Below are positions 6,037 to 42,200 of a stretch of DNA of 43,910 nt, in pieces. Numbering within the stretch: the first letter of the stretch is position 1; every line of letters starts with the position of its first letter. The stretch is from Candidatus Omnitrophota bacterium (GTDB lineage Bacteria; Omnitrophota; Gorgyraeia; JABMRN01; RBG-13-46-9): assembly GCA_016782445.1 (NCBI GenBank), contig JADHYM010000007.1, forward strand, positions 1 through 43,910, given 5' to 3'. The notes under the pieces are model-generated. The model ran no database searches. It saw nothing but the letters and a program-made list of their open reading frames with translations, and was not told the origin of the DNA. The translations under genes and the position numbers were made by a program.

Positions 6037-6045
6037 AATATCACG

Positions 6046-6211
6046 ATCTTCGGGGTGAGGCGGAACTCCTCAACCGGTAGTAAACCCCGGTACAAATCAA
6101 ATGCGCGGCATTTGTTATTTGTAACGGCGTAAAGCCTACGAGCTTCGAGTAATTCGGGGCAGATCCGGTGAAATTCCGGGGCCGATGGTATAGTCCAGAT
6201 AGAAGAAGAAT
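6046..6211 (+). ncRNA. FMN (RFN) riboswitch with an extended internal arm
   Basis: ATCTTCGGGG ... ACCGGTAGT ... AAGCCTACGAGC ... GGGGCAGATCCGGTGAAATTCCGGGGCCGATGGTATAGTCCAGATAGAAGAAGAAT; located upstream of ribBA. Confidence 0.93.
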
Positions 6212-6229
6212 CGCAAATGAAGTTTATTT

Positions 6230-7481: not shown

Positions 7482-7595
7482 TGATTACACAGATTTATTG
7501 CTTATAAAAATATGCAACTGAGATTACACAGATATTTCTGCTAATCTGTGTAATCTATAGTGCACAATTTTTTGAGCAAAAAATCGGCGTAATCA
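7482..7595. repeat. Palindromic intergenic element, copy A (~113 bp)
   Basis: Whole element is one imperfect palindrome with centre AGATTACACAGAT/ATCTGTGTAATCT and termini TGATTACAC.../...GTAATCA; second copy at 15567-15678. Confidence 0.85.
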
Positions 7596-15554: not shown

Positions 15555-15566
15555 AAAAATGTATTT

Positions 15567-15678
15567 TGATTACACAGATTTTATGCTTATAAAAATATGC
15601 AGCCAAAGATTACACAGATAGAAAATTAATCTGTGTAATCTATATTGCACATTTATGAGCAAGAAATCCGTGTAATCA
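15567..15678. repeat. Palindromic intergenic element, copy B (~111 bp)
   Basis: TGATTACACAGATTTtaTGCTTATAAAAATATGCA...AGATTACACAGAT/ATCTGTGTAATCT...TGCACATTTATGAGCAagAAATCCGTGTAATCA. Confidence 0.85.
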
Positions 15679-30261: not shown

Positions 30262-30288
30262 TCCTTATTCTAAAATGCCGATAGTATA

Positions 30289-30461
30289 AAGGGGTTTCGG
30301 GCGGTGCTTCCGCTCGTCGCTCCTTCGGGGGATAGGCGCCCCCTCAGTCGCTGCCGTGAAAAAGTGCTCATGATCTACTGCGCAAAAAATTGCGCAACTA
30401 AATGGCGCCAATTGTATGAGCACTTTTTCAAGGTTCGCTCCAGCACCGCCCGAAACCCCTT
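30289..30461 (-). ncRNA. Candidate structured RNA element, copy 1 (three helices, conserved loops)
   Basis: P1 20 bp perfect (30289-30308/30442-30461); P2 14 bp (30358-30371/30416-30429); P3 5 bp (30327-30331/30339-30343); loops match copy 2 while stems differ. Confidence 0.7.
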
Positions 30462-30636
30462 ATCATTCTACCCTAGATACTTGACTTTACAAAATTAATT
30501 GGCCAAAGTATGAAGTTGGGCGGCAAGCGGATGTCTTGTAGGTGACGTTTTCTAATCCTCTCTTCTTGTGATGTATAGTGGTTACAGAAACACCCGTCTG
30601 CAGCGCCTGCCGTATTGATAAATAATCAAAAAGATA

Positions 30637-36045: not shown

Positions 36046-36225
36046 ATAAAAGCGAGACACTGCGTCTTGTGCCGGAGCGGCGTTAAAAATCGCAAATACA
36101 ATCGCGCCATTTTACTGCGCAATTTTTTGTGCAGTAGCTATGAGCGATTTTTATAGAGTGAGAAAAAGGCGCGCATCCTTTTTCGAACGTCAAGCGGAGG
36201 TACAAGGCGCAGTGTCTCGCTTTAT
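36046..36225 (+). ncRNA. Candidate structured RNA element, copy 2
   Basis: P1 ATAAA(A)GCGAGACACTGCGTCTTGT/ACAAGGCGCAGTGTCTCGCTTTAT; P2 36084-36093/36144-36153; P3 36162-36169/36177-36184 with 7-nt loop; loops match copy 1. Confidence 0.7.
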
Positions 36226-36706: not shown

Positions 36707-38719
36707 ATGAAATATGTAATCAAAAAAGAAAAATCCGTTTCCGGAAAGACCATTGACTATCAAAAGGACTTAAACGAAGAGCAGTACCGGGTCGTTACGG
36801 AAGCCGAAGGCGCCTCGCTTGTCCTGGCAGGAGCGGGAAGCGGGAAGACCAGAACCCTTATCTACCGCGTAGCGTATCTGTTGGGAAAGGGGATAGCTCC
36901 CGAGAACATACTTCTCGTAACCTTCACTAACAAGGCCGCGCGTAATATGCAGGACAGGATCGAGATGCTCCTTGAATCAAAACCAAAAGGCTTATGGAGC
37001 GGTACTTTTCATCACATAGGAAATCGCTCTATACGGCTTTTCACGAAAGAGCTTGGGTTTAGGGCAAACTTCGGCATCCTGGATGAGGAAGACGCGTTGA
37101 GCCTTATAAAGGTATGCATGAGCAGTCTGAATAAACCCGTAAAAAAAGACGAGTATTTTCCGAAGCCCAAGATAATCAGGTCTCTTATAAGCTTTTCGAT
37201 CAATACGGGAATCGCATTAGAGGCAACGATAGCCAAGCGCTATCCCTATTTTTTCCCTTACGCGGAGACGATCAAAAAGATAAGAGATGAATACGACGAG
37301 AAAAAGAAAAATTCCAACACCATGGATTACGACGACCTTCTGACAAACTGGCTGGCGATTTTAAGAAACTCAAGTTCTGCCAGGGAAAAATTTACGCAAC
37401 AGTTTCGGTATATACTTGTAGACGAATACCAGGACACAAATATGCTGCAGGCGGAGATCATAAAGGAGCTTGCATCGCGTCACGGCAACGTACTTGTAGT
37501 CGGCGATGACGCGCAGGCCATATATTCGTTCCGGGGCGCAGACGTATCGAACATACTAAGATTCCCGGATGACTATCCGGACGCGAAAATATTTAAGCTT
37601 GAGACAAACTACCGCTCGGCTCCGGAGATATTGGAACTCGCGAACGATTCAATATCTAAAAACAAACACCAATACGAAAAACACCTGAAGGCTAAAAACG
37701 AAAGCTTCCAAAAACCAGCGCTCGTGGAAGTCAAAGACCTTTATGAGCAGGCGGATTTTGTGGCCCAGCGGATCCTGGAGCTTCGTGATGAGGGAACGCC
37801 GCTTGGGAAAATCGCAGTTCTTTTCCGGGCGCATTACCAGGCGGCCGAGCTTGAAATGGAGCTAACAAAAAGAGGCATACCTTTCGTGGTTCGCGGGGGA
37901 GTGAGGTTTTTCGAGCAGGCGCACATCAAGGACGTTTTGGCTCATGTAAAGATTTTGTTAAATCCGTTTGACGAGATATCGTGGATGCGCGCTCTTTCGA
38001 TACAGCCCGGCATAGGATCAATATACGCAGGAAAGATTTTTGACGAATTTGCAAAAGCAGGCTCCCTTGAGAAGGTGATGGCGAAGGGGTTCGGCAGATT
38101 CTTACCGGAACGGGCGCAAAAAGGGCTCGCTAAATTTAAAAAAATAATAAAACCTTTATTGCGTGAGGGTATTAAAAAAAGGCCTGACGAAGCCATAAGG
38201 GCCGTAGTAGAGGCTGGCTATGATTCCTACGTGATGACGCATTTTGACAACGCTAGCGACAGGGTAGAGGACTTGCGCGAGCTCATAAATTTCGCCCATA
38301 CGTATAAAAGCGTATCAGGTCTTTTGCATGACATTACGCTTCGGGAATCCTTCAGGGGTGAAACGATACGCGAGGCCCCGTCGCACGAGGAGCACCTGGT
38401 TCTTTCAACGATACACCAAGCTAAGGGTTTGGAGTGGGGTGCCGTCTTCATTGTAGGATTGTGCGAGGGCCGATTTCCTCATCCGAAAGCCGCGCAGGAA
38501 CTGGTTGAAATGGAGGAAGAGCGCAGGCTCTTTTACGTCGCGGCTACCAGAACAGAAAGAGAGCTTTACCTTATTCATCCGATTACGAGATACGATTACA
38601 AAATGGGAACTGTCATTTCGAGAAAGTCGATTTTTATAGAGGAGCTTGATGAAAACCTTTATGACAGGTGGGACATAGAAGAAGATTCTGAAAAAGTTAT
38701 AGATTTAGACGAACAGTAG
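36707..38719 (+). CDS. UvrD/PcrA-type ATP-dependent 3'-5' DNA helicase
   Basis: LVLAGAGSGKTRTLIYRVAYL; VDEYQDTNMLQ; VGDDAQAIYSFRGAD; STIHQAKGLEWGAVFIVGLCEGRFP. Confidence 0.95.
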   Translation: MKYVIKKEKSVSGKTIDYQKDLNEEQYRVVTEAEGASLVLAGAGSGKTRTLIYRVAYLLGKGIAPENILLVTFTNKAARNMQDRIEMLLESKPKGLWSGTFHHIGNRSIRLFTKELGFRANFGILDEEDALSLIKVCMSSLNKPVKKDEYFPKPKIIRSLISFSINTGIALEATIAKRYPYFFPYAETIKKIRDEYDEKKKNSNTMDYDDLLTNWLAILRNSSSAREKFTQQFRYILVDEYQDTNMLQAEIIKELASRHGNVLVVGDDAQAIYSFRGADVSNILRFPDDYPDAKIFKLETNYRSAPEILELANDSISKNKHQYEKHLKAKNESFQKPALVEVKDLYEQADFVAQRILELRDEGTPLGKIAVLFRAHYQAAELEMELTKRGIPFVVRGGVRFFEQAHIKDVLAHVKILLNPFDEISWMRALSIQPGIGSIYAGKIFDEFAKAGSLEKVMAKGFGRFLPERAQKGLAKFKKIIKPLLREGIKKRPDEAIRAVVEAGYDSYVMTHFDNASDRVEDLRELINFAHTYKSVSGLLHDITLRESFRGETIREAPSHEEHLVLSTIHQAKGLEWGAVFIVGLCEGRFPHPKAAQELVEMEEERRLFYVAATRTERELYLIHPITRYDYKMGTVISRKSIFIEELDENLYDRWDIEEDSEKVIDLDEQ

Positions 38720-38747
38720 GGTAGGCTTAAGCCGCCCCTACTGTTTG
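38711..38747. repeat. CAGTAGGG-type hairpin, copy 1
   Basis: GAACAGTAGGGTAGGCTTAAGCCGCCCCTACTGTTTGC. Confidence 0.75.
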
Positions 38748-38762
38748 CAAGGAGCGTAAAAA

Positions 38763-38921
38763 ATGAAAATAAATATCCGGCACATAAAAGAAAAAGACAT
38801 TTTTGAACTGCAAATCGTCGAACCCCGCCTAAGAGCGCATTTTCTTCTAAATCGCAAGATCTTAAACGACCTGCGAGTTATTATCGAAAGAGCACTCCTC
38901 GACAGCGCTAATAAGAAATAA
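38763..38921 (+). CDS. 52-aa small ORF, unknown function
   Basis: MKINIRHIKEKDIFELQIVEPRLRAHFLLNRKILNDLRVIIERALLDSANKK; GGAG RBS 9 nt upstream; below the ORF-track cut-off. Confidence 0.5.
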   Translation: MKINIRHIKEKDIFELQIVEPRLRAHFLLNRKILNDLRVIIERALLDSANKK

Positions 38922-38961
38922 TCCACTAAAAAGTCAGTTAAATAAAAAAATTAGTAGCATA

Positions 38962-38997
38962 AAACAGTAGGGCAGGCTTAAGCCTGCCCTACTGTTT
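38962..38997. terminator. Perfect palindromic hairpin, copy 2 (possible bidirectional terminator)
   Basis: AAACAGTAGGGCAGGCTTAAGCCTGCCCTACTGTTT, 18+18 nt perfect palindrome. Confidence 0.65.
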
Positions 38998-39219: not shown

Positions 39220-42200
39220 ATGTTAGAATATCAAGGACCATATAGTAAAAGAAACATTTATATCAAAATAATAGCATGGCTGGTGCTTATTACTTTTTCA
39301 TGGCAGCAGGTAAGCTACTCATGGGATTTATCCTACCTATCACGCCCCGCGTCAAAAGAAACGTCTTCTTCCGCCGCACTTCCTGAAAAAGAGATTAAGA
39401 TTACAAATTATGACCTTACATCAAATGACGAAAGCGAAATTAATGGCCTCTTGTCTTCTTCGAGAGAACAAGAAGAAGCAGGAACCTTCGCGCCTGCCCA
39501 TATTCAAAAAAGAGAAGCTGACCATGAGAGGCTTATACGAAAACAAAAAGGCATAGATTCTTTCGTGAACGACCTTTTGGGCAGGAAACGGATGAAGAAA
39601 AAAGATGCGGTTCCCTTGAAGAAGAAAAAAGGCGGGTCAGGAAGCGGAGCCCCGCGTGACCTCAACTGGACTCTTAGTGACTGGGATGAGGATGGAAATC
39701 CCCAGCAGCTAAATGTATACGAATATGACGGAAACGTTCTCAAGTCAATAACAAGTTATGACATAAGAGGGCTTGACGTCTCGCGATGGCTAAATGCAGG
39801 TGAAGAGCTTGAGAATAAAGACGGGGAGAAGTTTTTCGGTGGGTTTGACAAGGAGCTCGGAGAGGGCTTAGAATATGACCGCATATTGAATAAAATCGTA
39901 TATGAGGGTGGAGAAGGCGAGGAAAGAATTGCCTATATCTTAAGCGATTTTGACGAAAACGGAACGCCTCTTACTGTGAGCGTGTACGATTACAATAAAG
40001 ACGGCGACTTGAACGACAATCTTGACGAGGTGGTAACTTATGACATAAGCGGGCTCGATATCGATTTCTCAAGCGACGGCTGGAAAGGTCTACTTAACGA
40101 AGACCTGGTTACGCGCACGGCGGTGTACGAGGGCGAAAAAGACGAAGAGAAAATCGACTACATTCTCGACGACTATGCCGAAGACGAAAACGGTGTGAAC
40201 AGGCCGCATGAGGTAAGCGCCTACGATTATGAAGATGAAGATGACAAGAGAAAGCTTGTCAATATACGGAAATACGACATTTCAGACTACATAGGCAAAG
40301 AAAACTGGGAAGACATTCTTGCCGACCTTCTGGACGGAGATGAGGCAACGCTTGAGCTATATAAAAACGATCTTATAAGCGAGACGACCTTTACAGGGGC
40401 TGCCGATGAAGAGCGGGCAGACCAGGTATTTTATTACGCTGATGGCGAAATCGTATCGCGAAAGGACATGGAATATGTTGAGTATGACGAAAAATACGGC
40501 AAGAAAAAGCACGCGCTTCGAAGGTCGTTTACGTATGATACCGAAGAAATGGAAGCGGGCGAGGATAGGCGCGAGCGCGGTTCCGGAGAGTTGGTAACAG
40601 AAGATGAATTCAAGGGGGCCGCCGGCAAAGAGCAGGTAGTCCAGAGCTTTGAATATGAAGACGGCAAGATTATCGAAAGAAGAGATTACGAGTATGACGG
40701 CTTCCACTTGAGAAGCATTAAAACCTACGATACTTCCGGTATGGAGGAAAATGAAAATAGGCGCGCAAGGGGTGAGGGCTCACTGACCGAGGAATCCACC
40801 TTTGATGGCCGTTCAGGCCGCGAACAAATCCAACAAATTTTTTATTATGATTCCGAAGGCAACGTCGTAGAGCGCACTGACTACGAATACGAAAACGGCC
40901 GCCTCGTGGCAACATACGTATATGACACATCCAACATGGAAGAGGACGAAGACAGGCGTGAGCGCGGCACAGGAGATTTGACGGAAGAGTCAACCTTCGA
41001 AGGCCGTTCCGGCCGCGAAAGAATCCAGCAGACTTTCTATTATGACGAGGACGGCAACATCTTTGAGCGCAAGGACTATGAATATGAGAACGGCCGTCTT
41101 GTAGCTACATACACTTTTGATACCGAGAACATGGCCGAAGGCGAAGACCGGCGCGAGCGCGGTACCGGAGAACTGACCGAGGAATCCACCTTCGAGGGCC
41201 GAGCGGGCGAGGAAAAAATCCAGCAAACATTCTATTATGATTCCGATGGCAATATTATTTCCCGGAAAGATTACGAATATGAAAACGGCCGTCTCGTGGC
41301 CACATATACTTTTGATACCGAGAACATGGCCGAAGGCGAAGACCGGCGCGAGCGCGGCACGGGAGACCTGACGGAGGAATCTACTTTTGAAGGCCGTTCC
41401 GGCCGCGAAAGAATCCAACAGACCTTCTATTATGACGAGAACGGCGATATAATCGAACGGAAAGATTACGAGTACGATGGCCAACGGCTTGTTGCCGTAT
41501 ATACATTCAACACAGAGGATATGGCCGAAGGTGACGCAAGAAGAAAGCGTGGCACGGGAGACCTGACAGAGGAATCTATTTTTGAAGGCCGTTCCGGACG
41601 TGAAAGAATCCAGCAAACATTTTTCTACGACTCTGATGGAAACATCATCGAGAGGCGCGATTACGAATACGAAGGCAGGCGCCTTGTAAGGTCATGCGTA
41701 TATGACACAGACGACGAATCGCTTACCGAAGCCCAAAGGCGCGCGCGAGGCGAGGGAATGCTTGTCAACGAAGAATTTTATCAGGGTGTTTTTGGAAGAG
41801 AAAAGGTTAATTATACGGCTATTCACTCGGATATCTCACCGGATGACGGCCAATACCCTGACCCCAACGATCCTCAATTCCTGGAGGACGCGATAGCGAA
41901 CGGCGCTACCGTAGAATACTACACAAACGGAAAGGTCAAATCAATTAAATTCGTAGAGGAGGATGGCGAGCGCACTTATAGCTATGTTTACACGGGCGAA
42001 GAGGGCGAAGGCGCGCTTACAGAGGTTGGCGAGACAAAGCTTTACACAAGCGGCGCCGAGCCGGTTGAAAGACTTATAAATACCTTTATATATATAGGTG
42101 ACGAAGACAGCGAAACACTGGATTTAATAAATTCTCAAACCACTATAGTTGATTATATCTACGAAGAGGGGCTTTTAAAAGAAGTAATACAGTTTATTGA

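Follow-up and report, generated by a model that had tools for sequence, protein, structure and literature searches.

The window, by which we mean the whole stretch of 43,910 nucleotides of an Omnitrophota contig analysed here, belongs to a genome of 1.0 Mb in 37 contigs (86% complete) and contains two copies of a structured element, copy 1 at 30289–30461 on the minus strand, which is its sense strand, and copy 2 at 36049–36223 on the plus strand; the preliminary description of this DNA had placed both correctly. Several other features lie elsewhere in the window. There is an FMN riboswitch at 6042–6215 (Rfam RF00050, E 3.4e-17), and another dispersed inverted repeat, TGCACAATTTTTTGAGCA-like and with 52-nt arms in its first copy, occurs at 7482–7595 and 15563–15654. 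Two copies of 35-bp palindromes (AACAGTAGGGTAGGCTTAAGCC..TACTGTTT), 251 bases apart, are found at 38712–38997, and 195-base coding repeats, four to five in tandem, occupy 40741–41709 on the minus strand.

Read on the sense strand (minus for all parts of copy 1, plus for all parts of copy 2), each copy has a long closing stem, P1, that encloses two further helices, P2 and P3. The 5′ arm of P1 in copy 1 (30442–30461) pairs with the 3′ arm P1′ (30289–30308) as the perfect 20-bp helix first reported, 20/20 Watson-Crick, and P1 of copy 2 is 25 bp long (36049–36073 with 36199–36223), with 23 Watson-Crick pairs and two G.T pairs. P2 of copy 1 was also recognised earlier but is longer than supposed, with 14 bp formed by GAAAAAGTGCTCAT (30416–30429) and ATGAGCACTTTTTC (30358–30371); that of copy 2 is formed by TAAAAATCGC (36084–36093) and GCGATTTTTA (36144–36153). 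P3 is GGGGG-CGCCTAT-CCCCC in copy 1 (30327–30343) and GAAAAAGG-CGCGCAT-CCTTTTTC in copy 2 (36162–36184). All three helices do differ in sequence between the copies, with pairing kept in each. The P2 loop is conserved, as had been noted, but it is not a plain loop, and holds a further hairpin, TGCGCAA-TTTT-TTGCGCA in copy 1 (30379–30396) and at 36113–36136 in copy 2. The layout originally drawn stands, but it overlooked a pairing between the P2 and P3 loops: GGCG (30406–30409) in the P2 loop of copy 1 pairs with CGCC (30335–30338) in its P3 loop, and CGCG (36103–36106) pairs with CGCG (36170–36173) in copy 2. The folding of both sense strands is far below that of dinucleotide shuffles, whether computed for RNA (z -9.6 for copy 1 and -9.2 for copy 2) or for DNA (z -9.4 and -7.4).

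These two copies are part of a dispersed, multi-copy family. A search with the conserved loop finds many copies in the same genome, and a covariance model built from 15 full copies (R1) matches copy 1 at 30284–30466 on the minus strand (E 3.8e-45), copy 2 (E 2.0e-36), and in all about 22 strong copies in the 1.0 Mb, several of them cut by contig ends. Matches are present in 14 of 59 related genomes, and a refined model (R2) finds them in at least 41 of 384 genomes of the class, where they are patchy, concentrated in some families, and often present in several copies each; because the R2 search scored at most seven candidates per genome, its counts are lower bounds. When 84,980 species genomes were scanned for the exact pattern, 35 stretches were returned, 32 of them in Omnitrophota, and every confirmed match is from this phylum. 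The other three, in Clostridia, Pirellulaceae, and Anoxybacillus, have no covariance-model match and are attributed to chance. The exact pattern is absent from the viral contigs searched, and copy 1 has no match among phage and plasmid records. That the element is not a known Rfam family was borne out, as nothing in Rfam 15 reaches the gathering level and four members gave nothing credible even at a permissive E of 5–10; nor did we find a description of it in the literature searched, the coverage of which is incomplete.

We have little doubt that the sense strand adopts a real fold, a three-way junction with P1 as its long closing stem and a kissing loop between P2 and P3. The element spans roughly 150–200 bases (about 170 nt) and is branched, with the consensus P1-GGAGCGA-P2-P3-CGRCAAGCGRA-P1′. 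P1 has about 20–25 bp and is free in sequence, and is followed by a GGA/GGA internal loop and GC/GC; P2 is lengthened by CUGU/ACAG, and its loop starts with ACAA or ACC and contains the extra hairpin in some copies; P3 carries GA/GA tandem mismatches, and CGRCAAGCGRA precedes P1′. The conserved unpaired core is GGAGCGA / CRAGCGRA, and the purines conserved next to P1 (GGA/GGA) and surrounding P3 (GA/GA) resemble tandem G.A mismatches. In 22 of 63 copies, about a third, the flanks beyond P1 pair further as an outer stem, P0.

Support for the helices comes from alignments of increasing breadth. Among copies from the same genome 96.1% are paired over 52 pairs, with two-sided changes in 28; across 12 genomes the figure is 94.5%, with two-sided changes in 45 of 55 pairs; and in the widest alignment (69 sequences) 94.9% of cells pair, as against 40–45% with slid partners, and two-sided changes are seen in 44 of 46 pairs. 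The observed pairing values were never attained by shuffled alignments. Shared ancestry was removed by comparing close copies in 27 disjoint pairs, in which P1 has 122 compensatory doubles, 38 single changes, and 13 broken pairs; the slid-pairing control for the same 27 gives 7–17 doubles and 127–151 singles. Further homologs with compensatory changes are present both in the window's own genome and in other Omnitrophota, and the earlier proposal that single-strand structure is under selection, rather than repeats being plainly copied, is upheld by loops that are conserved and stems that truly covary under shuffle and slide controls.

The kissing loop behaves similarly. Most copies have a pairing of at least 4 bp between the P2 and P3 loops, and the combinations seen include GGCG/CGCC, CGCG/CGCG, CCTG/CAGG, CGCA/TGCG, CGCC/GGCG, CGAT/ATCG, and others. 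At the kissing positions two-sided changes occur in 4/4 pairs and 99.5% of cells pair in the 12-genome alignment, and an alignment-free test gives 4.48 for a copy's own loops and 3.88 (sd 0.11) for permuted loops. This covariation is tertiary, and palindrome copying does not explain it. Where one strand has a G.T wobble the complementary strand has an A.C mismatch, and the greater frequency of G.T pairs argues that it is the sense strand that is under selection: there are 66 G.T wobbles and 18 A.C mismatches counted as distinct genome-by-pair-by-type cases, and 45 and 8 in P1 only (raw P1 counts 53 and 7), although the alignment model tolerates G-U pairs and might tilt the count slightly toward G.T. 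Folding is thus specific to one strand, either as RNA or as single-stranded DNA, the wobble counts being compatible with both.

The placement of copies relative to genes (positions from ORF calls rather than annotations) is asymmetric. Of the gene 3′ ends within 60 nt of a copy, 28 (in 19 genomes) face the 3′ end of the element and three its 5′ end (p 4.6e-6); with the 3′ ends of gene and element adjoining, the sense strand of the element runs antisense to that gene. A sense promoter is not enriched (8 of 62 flanks with three or fewer mismatches, against 22% in shuffles), and a scan of the flanks shows no U-run after the element on the sense strand, no enriched terminator signal, and no T-run after P1 on the gene strand. 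Neighbouring genes have no common theme beyond ordinary operons; the only recurrent neighbours are ordinary conserved operons common to up to 5–6 loci, which is plausible by chance. We note also that GC skew in genome G007 follows the gene strand. The element was originally proposed as a new structured RNA family, and of this proposal the structured family stands, with covariation that includes a tertiary contact, but the RNA gene is doubtful, as sense promoters and terminators are not enriched, the sense strand is mostly antisense to its neighbour, and folding of single-stranded DNA accounts for the data as well.

Two congeneric genomes, G007 and G001, whose DNA is about 88% identical where it aligns, allow sites to be compared. 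The G007 copy at 1345690–1345960 has no counterpart at the matching G001 site, a copy on G001 contig C18 is absent from G007, and at one site G007 has a core of the kissing-loop family where in G001 the same P1 encloses another folded core. Another site (L133/L183) is occupied in both, so not all copies are recent. The region of G001 orthologous to that of copy 1, after pgpA, has no element, and a folded element before fabG in G001 is missing from that position in G000. Presence or absence by itself fits insertion or loss alike; it is the differences between relatives together with the copy number that we read as past mobility, and present or former mobility of the elements is in our view likely. 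There is no clear target-site duplication, the longest shared flank word being 5.2 against 4.8 bases, with element ends that are not exactly defined.

The P1 ends of these congeners are shared in sequence, whereas in G000 and between lineages they vary with compensation. The P1 word AGGACAGGATTTAAGCTG occurs 33 times in G007 and 12 times in G001 (two and one for a reversed control), and it encloses at least three different cores: core A, which is that of the kissing-loop family, core B, and core C, as well as near-empty hairpins. A match to an IS or MITE end had been named as evidence against a new RNA family, and we find part of such a match, in that P1 ends act like shared terminal inverted repeats, but in one genus only. 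Core B (TGAAAATTTTTCCC..GTGGTTTTGGACTTA..) has the same P1 ends at L206 (G001 C99), L207 (G001 C13), and L193 (G007 1366479–1366697). Core C (AATAAGCCTGTGGCAG...CTGCCACAGGCTTATT), with about 10 copies in G007, has the same P1 and GGAG flank at L194 (G007 752770–753039) and L195 (935868–936135). Small G+C-rich palindromes (for example CCTGCCCGTCCGGTCAGGCGGG) sit within the P2 loop, at its tip, in copies of the window's own genome (L016-L021) and elsewhere (L088, L091, L092), as if the loop tip tolerates inserts.

No specific mobilising machinery emerges from the genomes. The reverse transcriptase domain RVT_1 is absent from G000, G001, G002, G003, G006, G007, G009, G023, G055, and G032, of which G007 is a single contig, and since most carriers lack it, we reject retroposition driven by a reverse transcriptase (SINE-like, retron, or group II derived). 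Y1 HUH transposases are encoded by 12 of 13 carriers, but also by 37 of 46 non-carriers, and the kissing-loop element does not flank their genes, the loci carrying other palindromes or none; a RAYT/HUH enzyme was rejected as a specific partner on both counts. The Y1 transposase genes at L224, L225, and L228 (G007 and G006) have their own palindromes, distinct from the kissing-loop element. A candidate for an autonomous long version, 2.6 kb between P1-like words on G001 contig C107, consists of host fabG, acpP, and fabF beside separate elements and is not a transposon, and no autonomous partner element was found.

We favor, with modest confidence, the explanation that these are non-autonomous, mobile, MITE-like dispersed elements for which the single-strand fold is the substrate of mobilisation. 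A folded single strand (single-stranded DNA, or less likely a transcript) would be recognised by a putative mobilising enzyme, and only copies that keep the fold would be copied onward; stems could then drift in sequence while staying complementary, because only fold-keeping copies would spread. The main rival, which we regard as unlikely, is that the sense strand gives rise to a structured RNA of use to the host, an sRNA or an antisense 3′-end RNA kept for regulation. The strand-specific wobble, the kissing loop, the tandem G.A motifs, and the conserved unpaired core are typical of functional RNA or agree with it, but sense promoters are not enriched in the 62 flanks, there is no U-run, the neighbours are unrelated genes, copies are missing in congeners, and copies decay and carry nested inserts. 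It is less likely still that the gene strand matters, as a hairpin terminator or a stabiliser of the mRNA 3′ end of the upstream gene; the shared orientation, just past the stop codon, of 28 of the 31 copies within 60 nt of a gene 3′ end speaks for it, but the wobble asymmetry points to the other strand and the gene strand lacks a T-run. Placement at gene 3′ ends may be incidental, a consequence of where insertions are tolerated.

Complementary arms could also be maintained without selection. Quasipalindrome correction makes arms match, and template switching at the DNA level could account for P1 arms that are long and nearly perfect; the process is strand-symmetric, however, whereas G.T pairs outnumber A.C mismatches, and it leaves the 4-bp covariation between loops of separate hairpins unexplained, so we consider this very improbable and already largely refuted. 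There is a slim chance that the element is a distant member of a described RNA or repeat family that the searches missed, bacterial structured repeats being common (PMC2229807, PMC3733652, PMC2267715), but Rfam 15, phage, plasmid, and viral searches gave no match and the only pattern matches outside Omnitrophota fail the covariance model. Taking mobilisation through the fold as the preferred reading, we suggest tentatively that it could represent a new class of selfish element, spreading via a single-stranded intermediate that folds into a true tertiary structure, in which shape is selected over end sequence and the same end stem carries different cores.

Few structure-selected families have a kissing loop that covaries, and this one consists of repeats interspersed through genomes instead of a single conserved gene in each. 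Should mobility depend on the fold, MITE-like repeats would be linked to the biology of structured RNA or single-stranded DNA, in a tractable system with a fold that can be tested and that is defined already by numerous natural variants. The family also points to a source of genome rearrangement and of remodelled gene ends that is specific to this lineage, in a phylum of which little is known.

Comparison with known systems places the element near several of them. Integron attC sites have variable sequence and conserved structure, fold in a strand-specific manner, and lie beside stop codons, all of which the Omnitrophota element resembles; however, the RYYYAAC/GTTRRRY core is present in 0/65 copies, and these are dispersed rather than in cassette arrays, so identity with attC is rejected. 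The bcr repeats of the Bacillus cereus group are similar in size, lineage-specific, mobile-looking, and of predicted structure, but differ in sequence and phylum, and kissing-loop covariation is not known in them. REP/REPIN and TIR repeats with RAYT or TIRYT HUH transposases are likewise dispersed extragenic palindromes recognised as single-stranded DNA hairpins, and most carrier genomes do have Y1 genes, though unflanked by the element; REPs are simple hairpins of 20–40 bp with a GTAG or CGTC tag, unlike the branched element of about 170 nt described here (PMC3733652). Bacterial MITEs with stable transcripts include Correia/NEMIS, ERIC, and RUP (reviewed in PMC2229807). The element is short, non-coding, dispersed, and multi-copy, as DDE-type MITEs are, and shares with MITEs a size of 100–200 bp, an intergenic position, and a long stem closed by terminal inverted repeats; it departs from them in that P1 varies by compensated changes whereas the MITE terminal repeat is fixed, no TA target duplication is seen, and the fold is branched with a kissing loop and strand-specific wobble (PMC2229807). 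In kind the element is among the bacterial MITE/REP-like repeats (PMC2229807, PMC3733652), but its structure-based selection, tertiary contact, and swappable cores set it apart as a variant of its own.
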